64,000 nucleotides of DNA from Limnospira fusiformis SAG 85.79 (GTDB taxonomy: Bacteria; Cyanobacteriota; Cyanobacteriia; Cyanobacteriales; Microcoleaceae), in assembly GCF_012516315.1 (NCBI RefSeq), contig NZ_CP051185.1, positions 3,601,363-3,665,362 of the forward strand. Reading direction: 5' to 3'. Under the pieces are notes generated by a model. That model saw nothing but the letters and a program-made list of their open reading frames with translations, did no database searches and was not told where the DNA came from. Shown here in pieces: positions 24,538 through 34,368 of the stretch. The position numbers and the translations under genes were made by a program. How positions within the stretch are numbered: position 1 is the first letter of the stretch; each line of letters begins with the position of its first letter.

Positions 24538-24870
24538 GTGGAGAATATGTTAAGATTCCGAATAATGGTCAACACAGACATTTCCCTGAGCTTTCACGCG
24601 CTATCTGACCCCCTACGGATTCAGATTCTAGAACTCTTACGCCACCAGGAATTATGCGTGTGCGAAATCTGCGAAACCTTAGAGGTTAGCCAGTCGAAAC
24701 TGTCCTTTCATCTCAAAACGCTCAAAGAAGTGGGATTAATCAAAGGACGACAAGAGGGCCGCTGGATATATTATAGCATTAACCTGAGTCAAATGATTAT
24801 CCTAGAAGAATATCTAGGGGAGTTTCGGCGATTTAGTCCAGTGGTTCCGGCTTTACCTTGCTCAAATTAA
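24538..24870 (+). CDS. arsR: ArsR-family transcriptional regulator
   Basis: 110 residues from GTG at 24538, or 107 from ATG at 24547; both fit. A winged-helix domain spans about 15-95, with DPLRIQILELL, then LCVCEICE, the ArsR-type cysteine motif on the recognition helix that senses arsenite or related thiophilic metals, then SQSKLSFHLKTLKEVGLI and a wing RQEGRWIYYSI. No arsenate reductase or efflux gene is near, so target genes are unknown. Its stop overlaps the stop of gvpJ on the other strand, so transcripts of the two genes collide. Confidence 0.85.
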   Translation: MENMLRFRIMVNTDISLSFHALSDPLRIQILELLRHQELCVCEICETLEVSQSKLSFHLKTLKEVGLIKGRQEGRWIYYSINLSQMIILEEYLGEFRRFSPVVPALPCSN

Positions 24871-25250
24871 TCATCATTTTCGGAGTTAGGGGGAGTGACT
24901 GGCTGTGATGATTGGGAGGTCAAGGCTTTAAGCGATCGCACTTCTTCCTGTAGTCGTTTAACCTCCTCTAACAATTGTTCATTAGACTGTGATAATTGCT
25001 GCGCCTGGCTACTAAGATAAGGGTCACTTTCCCACCAATTAATCCCAATTTCCTTAGCCTTATCTACGGAAGCAATTAATAAACGAATGCGGATACTTAA
25101 CAATTCCGTAGACCCGACCGAGACGGAAATATCCCCAGCAATAACTATGCCTTTATCCAAAACCCTCTCTAGGATATCCGCGAGGGATGAACCGGAGGTA
25201 GACATCGGCACTCCGCGCTGAGGACTAGATGAACGTGATTGTAATGTCAT
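24867..25250 (-). CDS. gvpJ: Gas vesicle protein GvpJ
   Basis: 127 residues. The core SLADILERVLDKGIVIAGDISVSVGSTELLSIRIRLLIASVDKAKE is the GvpA/J/M fold, and GINWWESDPYL distinguishes GvpJ. The C-terminal 50 residues form a short coiled coil and polar tail. GvpJ is a minor GvpA-like protein thought to act in nucleation or capping of vesicles. Its ATG overlaps the gvpN stop by one base (TAATG), so translation is coupled. No gvpK, gvpF/L, gvpG, gvpV or gvpW follows; arsR occupies the next position on the other strand. Confidence 0.92.
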   Translation of the reverse strand: MTLQSRSSSPQRGVPMSTSGSSLADILERVLDKGIVIAGDISVSVGSTELLSIRIRLLIASVDKAKEIGINWWESDPYLSSQAQQLSQSNEQLLEEVKRLQEEVRSLKALTSQSSQPVTPPNSENDD

Positions 25251-26472: not shown

Positions 26473-26656
26473 TTAGTCCCGAACCCTATTTTCATTTGAT
26501 CTGTTGGCATAGTAGGCTTGAACGCTCTGAACAATCCAACCTTGGTTCAGAAGTTATCGCAAAGCATAAACGGTTTGAATGCGATTTAACTGCAAATCCT
26601 CCTCAATATCAGTCAATCGTACCCTCGACTGCTGATAAATGTAATCATAAACCCGT
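26473..26656 (-). pseudogene. Decayed winged-helix-like domain behind gvpC
   Basis: In the +1 frame relative to gvpC, the minus strand codes LTPDERVYDYIYQQSRVRLT, then DIEEDLQLNRIQTVYALR, a TAA, and LLNQGWIVQSVQAYY. This aligns well with the GvpN tail ([33 protein letters not shown]). Removing one C from the C-run at about 26655-26668 would fuse it to GvpC after VVPHP. The TAA at 26554-26556 is one change from a TCA serine. It is either a lost GvpC C-terminal domain or a leftover of a duplicated gvpN end. Confidence 0.6.
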
Positions 26657-27511
26657 TCATCCGGGGTTAGGGGGATGAGGAACAACAGTAGTTGGTTTAG
26701 GCTGATTAGGGGGAACTGCTGGTTTTGTTGGTTCAGCAACCACCACAGCGGTAGGTGTTGTTGATTGGGCTGCTGTGGTAGTACTAGGCGCTGATTTAAC
26801 CGCCTTCGGCTTGGTTTGAGGAACCAATGTTTGACTAGCCTTCGCCTTCTGAGGCGTTGCTGGGGTCGATTTCACCCTTTCACCACCCCAAACTGACTTT
26901 TCCCGTTCCCGACGATACTCTTGTAATTGCATCCGAAACTTACCCATATCCTCAAACATGGACTGAATACCTGCTAGGCGTTCGGCTTTCGCCTCTTGGG
27001 TTTGCTGTAGCAATTTTTCAGCCATAATGGTGCGGATAATATTGAACTCTTGCAAATCCCCTTGTACCTGCTGGGCGAGTTTTCGGCGACCGGCAGCTCT
27101 TTCCTGGTCCTGTTGTTGCCACTGCTGTTGCCATTGAGCAACCGTATCTCGAAGTTCCGCCCGAAAATCCCGTAACTCCTGCGCTAATTCCTCAGCTTTT
27201 TCGGCTCGGGACTGGGCGCTCTCCTCCAGAAAGGTAGCAGTTTCTTTCTGAAGCGATCGCACAAACTCTTTTAAATCCTCAGCTAGTTGTTCTGCTTGCT
27301 GACGATGGTTATTATGAGCGTCTGCCAAAAAGGCTTGATTTTCTTGTTTTAATTGAGATACAAAAGCCTGTCGATCTTGTTTTTGAGTGATCGCCTGGCT
27401 GTATCGTTCTCGTTGCCATAAACCGATCGTCGCCCAAATCTGTTTTTGGCTTTCAGCCAAAACCTGGCGACGCTCTAGGTGGCTTTGTTGCCAATCATCC
27501 TGTAACGCCAT
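26657..27511 (-). CDS. gvpC: Gas vesicle outer-rib protein GvpC
   Basis: 284 residues. Residues about 18-150 are amphipathic helical repeats of about 33 residues (QAFVSQLKQENQAFLADAHNN; EFVRSLQKETATFLEESAQSR; DFRAELRDTVAQWQQQWQQQ), the GvpC pattern that clamps GvpA ribs on the outside of the vesicle. A second helical stretch (about 155-215) and an Ala/Pro/Thr-rich tail follow. The tail ends PPNPG at TGA 26657 but reads into a hidden domain in another frame. This is the only full gvpC in the window; the upstream copies are broken. Confidence 0.9.
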   Translation of the reverse strand: MALQDDWQQSHLERRQVLAESQKQIWATIGLWQRERYSQAITQKQDRQAFVSQLKQENQAFLADAHNNHRQQAEQLAEDLKEFVRSLQKETATFLEESAQSRAEKAEELAQELRDFRAELRDTVAQWQQQWQQQDQERAAGRRKLAQQVQGDLQEFNIIRTIMAEKLLQQTQEAKAERLAGIQSMFEDMGKFRMQLQEYRREREKSVWGGERVKSTPATPQKAKASQTLVPQTKPKAVKSAPSTTTAAQSTTPTAVVVAEPTKPAVPPNQPKPTTVVPHPPNPG

Positions 27512-27740: not shown

Positions 27741-27959
27741 TTATACAGAAGGAACAGCAGCTTGAGCCGTTAGACCCACAGCTTCTGCATATTTGAGGTA
27801 AGTTTCCACAGATGCAATCACAACCCTTGCTTCTACCGATAACAGTTCTATGCCCACTAAGGAAACACGAACCCAGGCATCAATTACAATCCCTTTATCT
27901 AGGATACGATCAATAACCTCAGCCAAGCTCGAAGATGAGTTTACTTTTTCAACTGCCAT
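27741..27959 (-). CDS. gvpA: Gas vesicle structural protein GvpA, copy 1
   Basis: 72 residues beginning [20 protein letters not shown], the near-invariant GvpA of cyanobacteria; it polymerises into the ribs of the gas vesicle wall. AAGAGGT stands 10 bp ahead of the ATG as ribosome site. It precedes intact gvpC by 229 bp. The coding sequence matches the three copies further upstream base for base, as far as I can compare by eye. Confidence 0.95.
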
Positions 27960-28374
27960 GAGTCAATTACCTCTTAATTTTCATATTGACACCCCCACCG
28001 TCCAGCTAGGCTGTGATGGTAGATTGTTGCTAGTATTACTGTTGACCAGGCTACCAGGGAAGTCCTGTTATCCTCCGTCATACAGAATCCAGACAGATTT
28101 AACCGTCAAGAATGTGGCAATAGCCCGAAGCTTCTGAGTATGATACAATCAATAGTGAGGCAATCATGCCATTGGTGAAGGTATCTCTCAAAGCCTCCAA
28201 CATTCTGTTCAAAGAGGACTATTGTCACGTACAAATCGCCTTTTTAAAACCAAGATATACAGGCTATGTACTTCACGTCCACCCTTAAACAGCTATGGAG
28301 CATCATCCTACGACAACGGTTTGGAGTCTATCAGTACTTGGGTATAATGTCAAGCATTTTGGTAATAATTATTA
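27960..28374 (-). promoter_or_regulatory. gvpA upstream/leader region (parental copy)
   Basis: About 415 bp with no gene. Read leftwards it opens with TTGACATTATACCC (28354-28341), a possible -35 (TTGACA, 17 bp, TAGACT), and ends at the gvpA ribosome site. The same stretch precedes each of the four gvpA copies, so each copy could have its own promoter. Promoter assignment is tentative. Confidence 0.35.
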
Positions 28375-29055
28375 GGGTTTGACTAGCCTTCGCCTTCTAA
28401 GGCGTTGCTGGGGTCGATTTCACCCTTTCACCACCCCAAACCGACTTTTCCCGTTCCCGACGATACTCTCGTCATTGCATCCGAAACTTACCCATATCCT
28501 CAAACATGGACTGAATACCTGCTAGGCGTTCGGCTTTCGCCTCTTGGATTGGCTGTAGCAAGTTTTCAGCCATAATGGTGCGGATCAGATCATATTGAAC
28601 TATTGCCATACCTGCTGGGCGAGTTTTCGGCGACCGGCAGCTCTTTCCTGGTTCTGTTGTTGCCACTGCTGTTGCCATTGAGCAACCGTATCTCGAAGTT
28701 CCGCCCGAAAATCCCGTAACTCCTGCGCTAATTCCTCAGCTTTTTCGGCTCGGGACTGGGCGCTCTCCTCCAGAAAGGTAGCAGTTTCTTTCTGAAGCGA
28801 TCGCACAAACTCTTTTAAATCCTCAGCTAGTTGTTCTGCTTGCTGACGATGGTTATTATGAGCGTCTGCCAAAAAGGCTTGATTTTCTTGTTTTAATTGA
28901 GATACAAAAGCCTGTCGATCTTGTTTTTGAGTGATCGCCTGGCTGTATCGTTCTCGTTGCCATAAACCGATCGTCGCCCAAATCTGTTTTTGGCTTTCAG
29001 CCAAAACCTGGCGACGCTCTAGGTGGCTTTGTTGCCAATCATCCTGTAACGCCAT
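28375..29055 (-). pseudogene. gvpC: Decayed gvpC, unit 1
   Basis: The first about 148 residues match intact GvpC, then a net 4-bp deletion around 28594-28612 shifts the frame and stops it (QQVWQ, 151 residues in all, 28600-29055). Further down, the old frame carries a TGA (MQ-stop) and a TAG, and the 5' unit border cuts off the tail. The repeat region that binds GvpA ribs is largely kept in the 151-residue fragment, so a short GvpC might still be made. Confidence 0.85.
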
Positions 29056-29284
29056 AGTACTTAACGATATCCCCCCAGTTGGTAGTTAAGCATCGGACAT
29101 CTGTGGTTTTCTGTGGTTTTCTGTAGTCTTTCCTGTCAGCCTTACTTTAGGGTCTTCCCTAGAGAATCATATAGCCCCCTGAAACTCAGGCATTGGCTTT
29201 CCGACTCAGATTCAGGCTGTAGCTAGATGGACTTAATCAGAAGACAGAATCAGATGTCCGACCGCTAGTTAACTGTGAAACCCT

Positions 29285-29503
29285 TTATACAGAAGGAACA
29301 GCAGCTTGAGCCGTTAGACCCACAGCTTCTGCATATTTGAGGTAAGTTTCCACAGATGCAATCACAACCCTTGCTTCTACCGATAACAGTTCTATGCCCA
29401 CTAAGGAAACACGAACCCAGGCATCAATTACAATCCCTTTATCTAGGATACGATCAATAACCTCAGCCAAGCTCGAAGATGAGTTTACTTTTTCAACTGC
29501 CAT
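29285..29503 (-). CDS. gvpA: Gas vesicle structural protein GvpA, copy 2
   Basis: 72 residues, the same protein as copy 1, with the same ribosome site and leader. It lies 229 bp upstream of a decayed gvpC. Extra identical gvpA copies raise the dose of the wall protein without changing it. Confidence 0.95.
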
Positions 29504-29918
29504 GAGTCAATTACCTCTTAATTTTCATATTGACACCCCCACCGTCCAGCTAGGCTGTGATGGTAGATTGTTGCTAGTATTACTGTTGACCAGGCTACCA
29601 GGGAAGTCCTGTTATCCTCCGTCATACAGAATCCAGACAGATTTAACCGTCAAGAATGTGGCAATAGCCCGAAGCTTCTGAGTATGATACAATCAATAGT
29701 GAGGCAATCATGCCATTGGTGAAGGTATCTCTCAAAGCCTCCAACATTCTGTTCAAAGAGGACTATTGTCACGTACAAATCGCCTTTTTAAAACCAAGAT
29801 ATACAGGCTATGTACTTCACGTCCACCCTTAAACAGCTATGGAGCATCATCCTACGACAACGGTTTGGAGTCTATCAGTACTTGGGTATAATGTCAAGCA
29901 TTTTGGTAATAATTATTA

Positions 29919-30599
29919 GGGTTTGACTAGCCTTCGCCTTCTAAGGCGTTGCTGGGGTCGATTTCACCCTTTCACCACCCCAAACCGACTTTTCCCGTTC
30001 CCGACGATACTCTCGTCATTGCATCCGAAACTTACCCATATCCTCAAACATGGACTGAATACCTGCTAGGCGTTCGGCTTTCGCCTCTTGGATTGGCTGT
30101 AGCAAGTTTTCAGCCATAATGGTGCGGATCAGATCATATTGAACTATTGCCATACCTGCTGGGCGAGTTTTCGGCGACCGGCAGCTCTTTCCTGGTTCTG
30201 TTGTTGCCACTGCTGTTGCCATTGAGCAACCGTATCTCGAAGTTCCGCCCGAAAATCCCGTAACTCCTGCGCTAATTCCTCAGCTTTTTCGGCTCGGGAC
30301 TGGGCGCTCTCCTCCAGAAAGGTAGCAGTTTCTTTCTGAAGCGATCGCACAAACTCTTTTAAATCCTCAGCTAGTTGTTCTGCTTGCTGACGATGGTTAT
30401 TATGAGCGTCTGCCAAAAAGGCTTGATTTTCTTGTTTTAATTGAGATACAAAAGCCTGTCGATCTTGTTTTTGAGTGATCGCCTGGCTGTATCGTTCTCG
30501 TTGCCATAAACCGATCGTCGCCCAAATCTGTTTTTGGCTTTCAGCCAAAACCTGGCGACGCTCTAGGTGGCTTTGTTGCCAATCATCCTGTAACGCCAT
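29919..30599 (-). pseudogene. gvpC: Decayed gvpC, unit 2
   Basis: Same lesions as unit 1: a 151-residue N-terminal fragment (30144-30599), the 4-bp deletion, TGA and TAG in the former frame. I see no difference from unit 1. Confidence 0.85.
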
Positions 30600-30828
30600 A
30601 GTACTTAACGATATCCCCCCAGTTGGTAGTTAAGCATCGGACATCTGTGGTTTTCTGTGGTTTTCTGTAGTCTTTCCTGTCAGCCTTACTTTAGGGTCTT
30701 CCCTAGAGAATCATATAGCCCCCTGAAACTCAGGCATTGGCTTTCCGACTCAGATTCAGGCTGTAGCTAGATGGACTTAATCAGAAGACAGAATCAGATG
30801 TCCGACCGCTAGTTAACTGTGAAACCCT

Positions 30829-31047
30829 TTATACAGAAGGAACAGCAGCTTGAGCCGTTAGACCCACAGCTTCTGCATATTTGAGGTAAGTTTCCACAGA
30901 TGCAATCACAACCCTTGCTTCTACCGATAACAGTTCTATGCCCACTAAGGAAACACGAACCCAGGCATCAATTACAATCCCTTTATCTAGGATACGATCA
31001 ATAACCTCAGCCAAGCTCGAAGATGAGTTTACTTTTTCAACTGCCAT
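30829..31047 (-). CDS. gvpA: Gas vesicle structural protein GvpA, copy 3
   Basis: 72 residues, identical to copies 1 and 2, with the same leader and spacing to its decayed gvpC. Confidence 0.95.
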
Positions 31048-31462
31048 GAGTCAATTACCTCTTAATTTTCATATTGACACCCCCACCGTCCAGCTAGGCT
31101 GTGATGGTAGATTGTTGCTAGTATTACTGTTGACCAGGCTACCAGGGAAGTCCTGTTATCCTCCGTCATACAGAATCCAGACAGATTTAACCGTCAAGAA
31201 TGTGGCAATAGCCCGAAGCTTCTGAGTATGATACAATCAATAGTGAGGCAATCATGCCATTGGTGAAGGTATCTCTCAAAGCCTCCAACATTCTGTTCAA
31301 AGAGGACTATTGTCACGTACAAATCGCCTTTTTAAAACCAAGATATACAGGCTATGTACTTCACGTCCACCCTTAAACAGCTATGGAGCATCATCCTACG
31401 ACAACGGTTTGGAGTCTATCAGTACTTGGGTATAATGTCAAGCATTTTGGTAATAATTATTA

Positions 31463-32143
31463 GGGTTTGACTAGCCTTCGCCTTCTAAGGCGTTGCTGGG
31501 GTCGATTTCACCCTTTCACCACCCCAAACCGACTTTTCCCGTTCCCGACGATACTCTCGTCATTGCATCCGAAACTTACCCATATCCTCAAACATGGACT
31601 GAATACCTGCTAGGCGTTCGGCTTTCGCCTCTTGGATTGGCTGTAGCAAGTTTTCAGCCATAATGGTGCGGATCAGATCATATTGAACTATTGCCATACC
31701 TGCTGGGCGAGTTTTCGGCGACCGGCAGCTCTTTCCTGGTTCTGTTGTTGCCACTGCTGTTGCCATTGAGCAACCGTATCTCGAAGTTCCGCCCGAAAAT
31801 CCCGTAACTCCTGCGCTAATTCCTCAGCTTTTTCGGCTCGGGACTGGGCGCTCTCCTCCAGAAAGGTAGCAGTTTCTTTCTGAAGCGATCGCACAAACTC
31901 TTTTAAATCCTCAGCTAGTTGTTCTGCTTGCTGACGATGGTTATTATGAGCGTCTGCCAAAAAGGCTTGATTTTCTTGTTTTAATTGAGATACAAAAGCC
32001 TGTCGATCTTGTTTTTGAGTGATCGCCTGGCTGTATCGTTCTCGTTGCCATAAACCGATCGTCGCCCAAATCTGTTTTTGGCTTTCAGCCAAAACCTGGC
32101 GACGCTCTAGGTGGCTTTGTTGCCAATCATCCTGTAACGCCAT
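31463..32143 (-). pseudogene. gvpC: Decayed gvpC, unit 3
   Basis: Same truncated 151-residue frame (31688-32143) and the same downstream stops as in units 1 and 2, showing that decay came before amplification. Confidence 0.85.
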
Positions 32144-32372
32144 AGTACTTAAGGATATCCCCCCAGTTGGTGGTTAAGCATCGGACATCTATGGTTTTCT
32201 GTGGTTTTCTGTAGTCTTTCCTGTCAGCCTTACTTTAGGGTCTTCCCTAGAGAATCATATAGCCCCCTGAAACTCAGGCATTGGCTTTCCGACTCAGATT
32301 CAGGCTGTAGCTAGATGGACTTAATCAGAAGACAGAATCAGATGTCCGACCGCTAGTTAACTGTGAAACCCT

Positions 32373-32591
32373 TTATACAGAAGGAACAGCAGCTTGAGCC
32401 GTTAGACCCACAGCTTCTGCATATTTGAGGTAAGTTTCCACAGATGCAATCACAACCCTTGCTTCTACCGATAACAGTTCTATGCCCACTAAGGAAACAC
32501 GAACCCAGGCATCAATTACAATCCCTTTATCTAGGATACGATCAATAACCTCAGCCAAGCTCGAAGATGAGTTTACTTTTTCAACTGCCAT
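32373..32591 (-). CDS. gvpA: Gas vesicle structural protein GvpA, copy 4 (most upstream)
   Basis: 72 residues, identical protein. It is the first gvpA of the array in the direction of transcription. Its leader (32592-33005) has three private substitutions compared with the other units and is cut at 33005 by an intron relic, so any regulatory site further upstream has been replaced. Confidence 0.95.
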
Positions 32592-33112: not shown

Positions 33113-33411
33113 TTATAGTGAAGTCTCGATTTGAGGCCACCAATGAAAACTCATCAAGCCTCGAATTAATTCGCGCTGTTCCCACAAACTTCGGCAGCTA
33201 GCACACAAGAGTTCCTCTAGCTGCTCAAGATTCTCAAATGAGCGATTGGCAATGGGTTCATCTACCAGAGGCCACAGTCTTTCCGCCGGTTGCAGTTCCG
33301 GGGAATGGGACGGTAGAAACATTAAATGCAGTCCTTCGGGTACTTTCAGATTCTTACTGATATGCCATCCGGCTTGGTCAACCACTAACATAATGTGTTG
33401 ATTTGGACCTA
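33113..33411 (-). pseudogene. IS630-superfamily transposase, C-terminal fragment
   Basis: About 98 residues: GPNQHIMLVVDQAGWHIS (second catalytic Asp), then FLPSHSPELQPAERLW (third acidic residue, DDE/D pattern) and a helical end. This is the C-terminal third of a transposase of a different IS630 subgroup from the three full copies. It is broken at 33411 where IS630 copy 1 begins. Confidence 0.75.
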
Positions 33412-34368
33412 TAGCATTAGTCAAGGTGGTTAGGACGCAGATTGGAGAACGGAATCCATGGCATCATGGAGAGAATCAAACTGCTCAATACCGTGGCGAA
33501 TACGGGCTTTCAGCCACGACCAACATTTCTCTATCTTGTTGAGGTCTGGCGAATAAGGCGGAAGATAGAGTAAACGGCATTGAGCTGCCTCCACCAGTTC
33601 AGCAATCCGCCCCCCTTTATGAAACGTTGCATTGTCTAGCACTAGAGTCTGACCTGGCTTCAGTGTTGGAATTAAGATGAACTCCAACCACAACTCAAAC
33701 ACTGTCCGATTACAACAACCCTCAAAGCTAAAGGGGGCTAAGAGTTGTTGATCACACCATGGGGCCATATAGCTCACCCTGCCCTGCCTCTTCCCTGATT
33801 TGAGGGCATGGAAGCGTTGTCCTTCCTCGCAGTAACCATAAGGATAATCCGAGTCTTGACTATTCATGCCAGCTTCATCGAGGTAAACCAACCCTTCCGG
33901 CTCCATCTGTTCAATCTGAGCAATCAACTCCTCTCGCTGTTGCTTCCAACGTTCTTGGTAGCCGTAAGTTTTTTTTCTGGTGAAGCCAATTTTCTTCAAG
34001 GCTCTGGATATGGTGCGAGGAGAGATGTCGTCATCCCAAAGTTCAGCCATTTGAGCGGAGGTTTTGTGGCCATGCTCTTAGGCAAAAGCCTTGAATTTGT
34101 GCCAGTCGGTAATTTTGTGGTTATGACCAGGTGGGCGATTAGGTTTAGGGAGGAAGTCTCCGGTGTGTTCTTTTCTTTGGAGCCAGAGATTGATAGTGTT
34201 CCGGCTGAGATGGAAAAATTGACTGGCTTTGGTTTTGGACATACCGTATAGTTCAATTGCATTGATAACTTTTTGTCTAAGGTCGTAACTGTAGGGGGCT
34301 GGCATTTTTGGTCTTCTTAGTCATCTCGTCCTCTCCATTATACGTCCTAACTTTCCTGTCTTATGCTA
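33412..34368 (-). mobile_element. IS630-family insertion sequence, copy 1 (957 bp)
   Basis: Ends TAGCATTAGTCAAGG... and ...TGTCTTATGCTA are imperfect inverted repeats of the pattern TAGCAnnAGnCAn6TTAGGACG, flanked on both sides by TA (33410-33411, 34369-34370), as expected for IS630 targets. It is one base shorter than copy 3 because its A-run has 8 rather than 9 As. Left and right flanks are fragments of two different transposases. Confidence 0.88.
33430..34305 (-). pseudogene. IS630 transposase, copy 1: single frame but with a nonsense codon
   Basis: With 8 As in the run at about 33969-33976, the helix-turn-helix part ([20 protein letters not shown]) and the DDE part (LVYLDEAGMNSQDSDYPYG; TLVLDNATFHKG; LPPYSPDLNKIEKCW) are in one frame of 291 codons. 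A TAA at 34080-34078 replaces the glutamine of AFAQEHG in the other copies. A restart at ATG 34050 would give a 206-residue protein without the DNA-binding end. Probably inactive. Confidence 0.82.

Follow-up and report, generated by a model that had tools for sequence, protein, structure and literature searches.

Past the stop codon of the gas-vesicle gene gvpC of Limnospira fusiformis SAG 85.79, the minus strand reads IPLTPDERVYDYIYQQSRVRLTDIEEDLQLNRIQTVYALR-stop-LLNQGWIVQSVQAYYANRSNENRVRD-stop in the +1 frame, and the locus raises the question of where this interrupted protein sequence came from and what it did when intact. A preliminary description had called it a relative of the C-terminal tail of GvpN and had offered two origins, a winged-helix (WH) domain once carried by GvpC itself or the relic of a gvpN duplication. 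The window analyzed here is the whole stretch of 64,000 nucleotides, in which gvpC is located between gvpA and gvpN within the gvp cluster. The features concerned, in window positions, are as follows.

27741-27959, minus strand: gvpA
26657-27511, minus strand: gvpC, present open frame, 284 amino acids, ending ...VVPHPPNPG
26657-26690, minus strand: frame-change site in the C-rich linker, CCTCATCCCCCTAACCCC, with the frame change also present in Arthrospira sp. PCC 9108
26476-26676, minus strand: broken WH domain of GvpC, 67 codons, in the +1 frame relative to gvpC
26554-26556, minus strand: inner in-frame TAA, inside WH helix 3 (ALR-stop-LL)
26473-26475, minus strand: original terminal stop of the domain, TAA
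25250-26434, minus strand: gvpN, 394 amino acids, an AAA+ ATPase (TIGR02640) with an intact C-terminal WH at residues ~330-394
24867-25250, minus strand: gvpJ

The gvpC product consists of a helical core of 33-residue repeats followed by a VWG motif and a Pro/Thr-rich linker. It passes the TIGR02641 repeat cut-off (20.0 bits vs 18.8) and scores under that of PF01304 (15.2 vs 21). In both the window and Arthrospira sp. PCC 9108 (CP066886), a WH follows the Pro-rich linker in the wrong frame and is interrupted by a TAA; the two genomes have these lesions in common. A one-base excess near the C-run would join the frames, as had been proposed, but the linker is too divergent among relatives for the frame change to be placed more finely than to the linker. 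The proposed change of TCA to TAA is plausible, serine being the commonest residue at the inner-TAA site (47 of 61 rows). Homopolymer runs are commonly mis-sequenced, and both lesions might then be errors in an intact domain. This explanation is refuted unless the two assemblies carry identical errors, since PCC 9108 has the same break and TAA with other differences nearby, and conserved residues have been lost as well; we give it next to no weight.

Within 27741-32591, gvpA and truncated gvpC are repeated in tandem every 1544 bases, with gvpA copies at 27741, 29285, 30829, and 32373; each of the three additional gvpC copies is interrupted mid-gene (151-aa frames), and none has a WH tail. At the upstream end of the array (33113-34050) is a transposase in two frames (206 and 103 aa), which by eye we take to be IS630-like. 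On the plus strand at 24538-24870, convergent with the end of gvpJ, is a small helix-turn-helix regulator, presumably ArsR-like, its family likewise called by eye.

Used as a protein query against 59 related genomes, the broken tail matched the GvpC C-termini of intact relatives with E ~1e-8 to 1e-11 and GvpN C-termini with E ~1e-6 to 1e-9, the best matches being to GvpC rather than GvpN. Because the broken sequence by itself matches the C-terminus of intact GvpCs, the remnant is not a chance reading. When the window's genome was searched with a profile of ten intact tails, there were just two hits: the GvpN tail and the remnant (5.8e-17, one TAA). A GvpN-tail HMM scored the window tail at 58.8 bits, and the homology extends to whole families, hhalign matching the alignment of GvpC tails to that of GvpN tails with a probability of 99.9% (E 7e-35); the out-of-frame relative of the GvpN tail, read in the +1 frame with its inner TAA, is thus real. 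The cyanobacterial GvpN tail, an extension of the TIGR02640 AAA+ family, is homologous in fold and sequence (EIE-L-NRVQT-ALRSL), but GvpC tails hold a sharper RFQAVDALRSLIKKG-QRDR-Y signature, whereas GvpN tails vary more and are missing in many clusters whose GvpC is also tail-less.

Homology to the GvpN tail would also be expected if the remnant were a recent copy of the gvpN 3' end placed behind gvpC in Arthrospira. In a tail tree of 153 rows built on 60 columns, however, the window tail sits with GvpC tails of Planktothrix; the fork is weakly supported, but every one of its nearest rows is a GvpC. The GvpN tail of the window lies inside a supported GvpN set (97/91). The GvpC and GvpN labels require 8 changes on this tree vs ~51 in shuffles. 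With the window tail beside Planktothrix GvpC tails and the window's own GvpN tail elsewhere, we conclude that the remnant descends from a domain of GvpC itself. Its best matches are to GvpC, not GvpN, and in relatives the domain is fused in frame to GvpC; the tree and these in-frame orthologues largely refute a local gvpN duplication, which we consider very improbable. On a far longer evolutionary timescale, either of the two tails may well be derived from the other.

The in-frame domain that the preliminary description proposed to look for in relatives was surveyed at 80 named gvpN loci. In 60 of these, GvpC ends in an in-frame WH and its gene lies directly upstream of gvpN, a result that bears out the proposal that ancestral GvpC carried a C-terminal WH of the GvpN type. 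One locus (L061, Arthrospira PCC 9108) has the same broken tail, one (L098) has the tail in another frame than the GvpC core, and four have GvpC without a tail (L064 from P. rubescens, L102, L105, L127). The remaining 14 are Nostoc-type, with gvpC beyond or at the edge of the stretch fetched; in those Nostoc-type clusters whose reading was extended, a short GvpC of ~205-275 aa bearing this tail lies ~6 kb downstream, after gvpA. The differing core and tail frames at L098:3853-5174, from MAG M55_K2018_004, represent another broken tail or an assembly error. The tail-bearing GvpCs of intact relatives are ~320-370 residues long with the domain as their in-frame end, and in-frame tails occur in benthic Planktothrix, Kamptonema, Oscillatoria, Roseofilum, many Leptolyngbya-like genera, and Nostoc-type clusters. 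Other Nostocales and the rest of the tail-less clusters have GvpCs that lack the tail; judged by protein type and kinship, some of these GvpCs would be of Dolichospermum or Microcystis type. The canonical Anabaena flos-aquae-type GvpC (TIGR02641/PF01304) is alike in its repeat core and shell-strengthening role, but in other Nostocales clusters, GvpCs broadly of this type are without the WH tail.

Two Planktothrix-group genomes (G017 and G030) have a second gvp cluster (L243:7995-9942 and L244:8468-10420) in which GvpN has the tail and GvpC is very short (136-139 aa) and tail-less. In Nostoc-type gvp clusters (L171:4525-8679), a double AAA+ ATPase resembling Cdc48 separates gvpF-type genes from a gvpA-gvpC pair on the 3' side, and response-regulator and CheW-like genes come next; this layout is possibly hormogonium-linked.

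Structure prediction of the restored domain, also suggested at the outset, was performed with AF2 on the window tail with the TAA read as serine and an alignment of 61 relatives. The read-through tail gave a clean WH (H-H-H-wing) with a mean pLDDT of 88, containing helices at residues 5-16, 21-28, and 32-45 and strands at 48-50 and 55-57. GvpN residues ~330-394 are likewise predicted as a WH, with pLDDT 87-96 across most of the segment. The closest solved folds to the tail are winged helices (Z up to 11.3). They include the PKZ Zalpha domain 4lb5 (rmsd 0.9 over 55 residues, TMq 0.75, Z 10.0), MecR2, IclR and MarR proteins, and RPA32C, a WH that binds proteins; the RPA32C neighbor 4mqv is, by its title, a complex with SMARCAL1. 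Searching PDB sequences with the tail profile returned weak matches only (DDRGK1, AF2008; E >= 0.24). None of the Pfam DNA-binding WH families HTH_27, TrmB, and MarR exceeded its curated cut-off: HTH_27 scored 21.9 against 22.2, and for TrmB, with a cut-off of 25.6, GvpN scored 21.8 and the GvpC of a relative 23.3.

Intact tails have dN/dS values of 0.06-0.26 (11 species pairs), mostly under the value of the GvpC core, and the intact domain is under purifying selection. In the Arthrospira/Limnospira comparison, which comprises two genomes, the window and PCC 9108 tails differ at 4 of 201 bases, with four nonsynonymous and no synonymous changes; the probability of four out of four is ~0.01 if omega is 0.13 and 0.37 if the tail is neutral. 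The gvpN genes of the same pair differ at 3 of 1185 bases, one nonsynonymous, and the gvpC frames at eight, four nonsynonymous and four synonymous. The window tail has kept 13 of 19 highly conserved positions, as compared with 94% on average in intact relatives, and its wing motif reads QSVQ where QRDR is conserved. These data also bear on whether the tail might still be made by programmed +1 frameshifting at the C-run (CCC CCT) followed by stop readthrough. The junction does have a slippery-looking C-run and the frame relation is +1, but the in-frame TAA cuts off part of helix 3 and the wing, no constraint is seen between the two species, and the conserved wing residues are gone. We therefore reject programmed frameshifting, whose chances we put at very slim.

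Taken together, we regard it as virtually certain that the remnant is the decayed C-terminal WH of GvpC itself. The ancestral gvpC encoded helical repeats, a Pro-rich linker, and a WH. Within Arthrospira/Limnospira, the domain was severed by a linker frameshift together with a TAA in helix 3, and the tail is now drifting, with the GvpC core and the gene order still intact.

The domain has also been lost within Planktothrix. In P. rubescens PCC 7821, a single 290-nt deletion relative to Planktothrix PCC 11201 has removed linker and domain, and GvpC now ends in the frameshifted SIPSRLYSC; this loss is independent of that in Arthrospira. The gvpA-gvpC array copies of P. rubescens (L064:1940-3619) retain pieces of the Pro-rich linker (SIKPQPTVNPGVPQPATLDQ) without a WH, and these may be the leftover gvpC fragments of the Planktothrix literature. 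Arthrospira is planktonic. The two independent losses in plankton fit a link with lifestyle but do not prove one, and a long GvpC40 has been found in all non-planktic Planktothrix, with a shorter GvpC in planktic strains (Pancrace et al., 2017; PMC5259702).

GvpC40 of non-planktic Planktothrix has the same gene position and core as the window gvpC, and its C-terminus is the intact form of the window tail (PMC5259702). A 28-residue stretch of it was reported to be 64% identical to GvpN, and 60 residues to resemble Geitlerinema GvpC, but that paper names no WH, no spread beyond Planktothrix and Geitlerinema, and no Arthrospira remnant (Pancrace et al., 2017). The preliminary description had considered the domain one not usually mentioned for gas-vesicle proteins; this nearly holds, the open-access paper on GvpC40 having described its GvpN-like stretch but named no domain. 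A search of the open-access literature for GvpC with 'winged helix' found no paper, and one with 'helix-turn-helix' found nothing relevant by title and abstract; that literature yielded no account of the identity and spread of the domain, its form in Nostoc, the remnant in Arthrospira, or the deletion in P. rubescens.

What the intact domain does is suggested by where it occurs: the shell protein GvpC and the AAA+ protein GvpN each have it as a separate, conserved, and constrained domain. By analogy, the intact GvpC tail may be a docking or regulatory module joining shell-bound GvpC to the GvpN ATPase, an assignment that we hold tentatively, at somewhat under even odds. The WH of intact GvpC would be tethered to the vesicle shell by a flexible linker and would dock GvpN at growing vesicles, through WH pairing or a common ligand; docking would serve as a step of coupling or control, and plankton that are constitutively buoyant could dispense with it. 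Haloarchaeal GvpC likewise has a globular C-terminal module, which has been found experimentally to bind GvpN and GvpO, but it is of the zinc-finger type and not a WH; it is therefore an analogue in position and no homologue (PMC9372576). GvpC has the tail without a recognizable GvpN tail in 11 clusters, so the GvpN WH cannot be the partner in every case. The raw cluster counts are suggestive of co-evolution: both proteins have the tail in 67, neither in 28, only GvpC in those 11, and only GvpN in ~14 (the broken L061 having been moved and two cut loci dropped, and a few genomes being counted twice). On the GvpN AAA tree there are four independent pairs (sign test p = 1), and since co-occurrence is inseparable from phylogeny, we make no claim of co-evolution.

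The domain might instead bind DNA or RNA; GvpC would then have a second function as a regulator, coupling the assembly of vesicles to gene control or to the position of the nucleoid. The recognition helix and the wing are basic (mean net charge +2.4 and +1.1, respectively) and helices 1 and 2 acidic, helix 3 has conserved R, Q, D, and R, and Zalpha-DNA, IclR, and MarR structures are among the near folds, all of which makes such a role possible. However, the domain overall is near neutral (+0.3), no Pfam DNA-binding model reaches its cut-off, the literature has GvpC as an abundant shell protein, and the same domain on the AAA+ protein GvpN fits an assembly role better; we consider nucleic-acid binding unlikely. 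Decay of a GvpC domain together with the proposed docking role is overall the best explanation of the locus, and we assign it, as a compromise between the two parts, a probability of roughly 0.6. A more speculative extension, to which we give a low probability, is that paired GvpC and GvpN WHs formed a docking or checkpoint switch for the growth of ancestral cyanobacterial vesicles, and that independent losses of the GvpC half in obligate plankton (Arthrospira, planktic Planktothrix, possibly Anabaena and Microcystis types) freed vesicle production from this control.

GvpC has been much engineered, for ultrasound and MRI reporters. A conserved domain common to GvpC and GvpN, and missing from the planktonic models that defined GvpC, provides a testable link between the two proteins and suggests a modular route for bringing proteins to vesicles. 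Its loss may be a genetic mark of a shift from optional to constant buoyancy.
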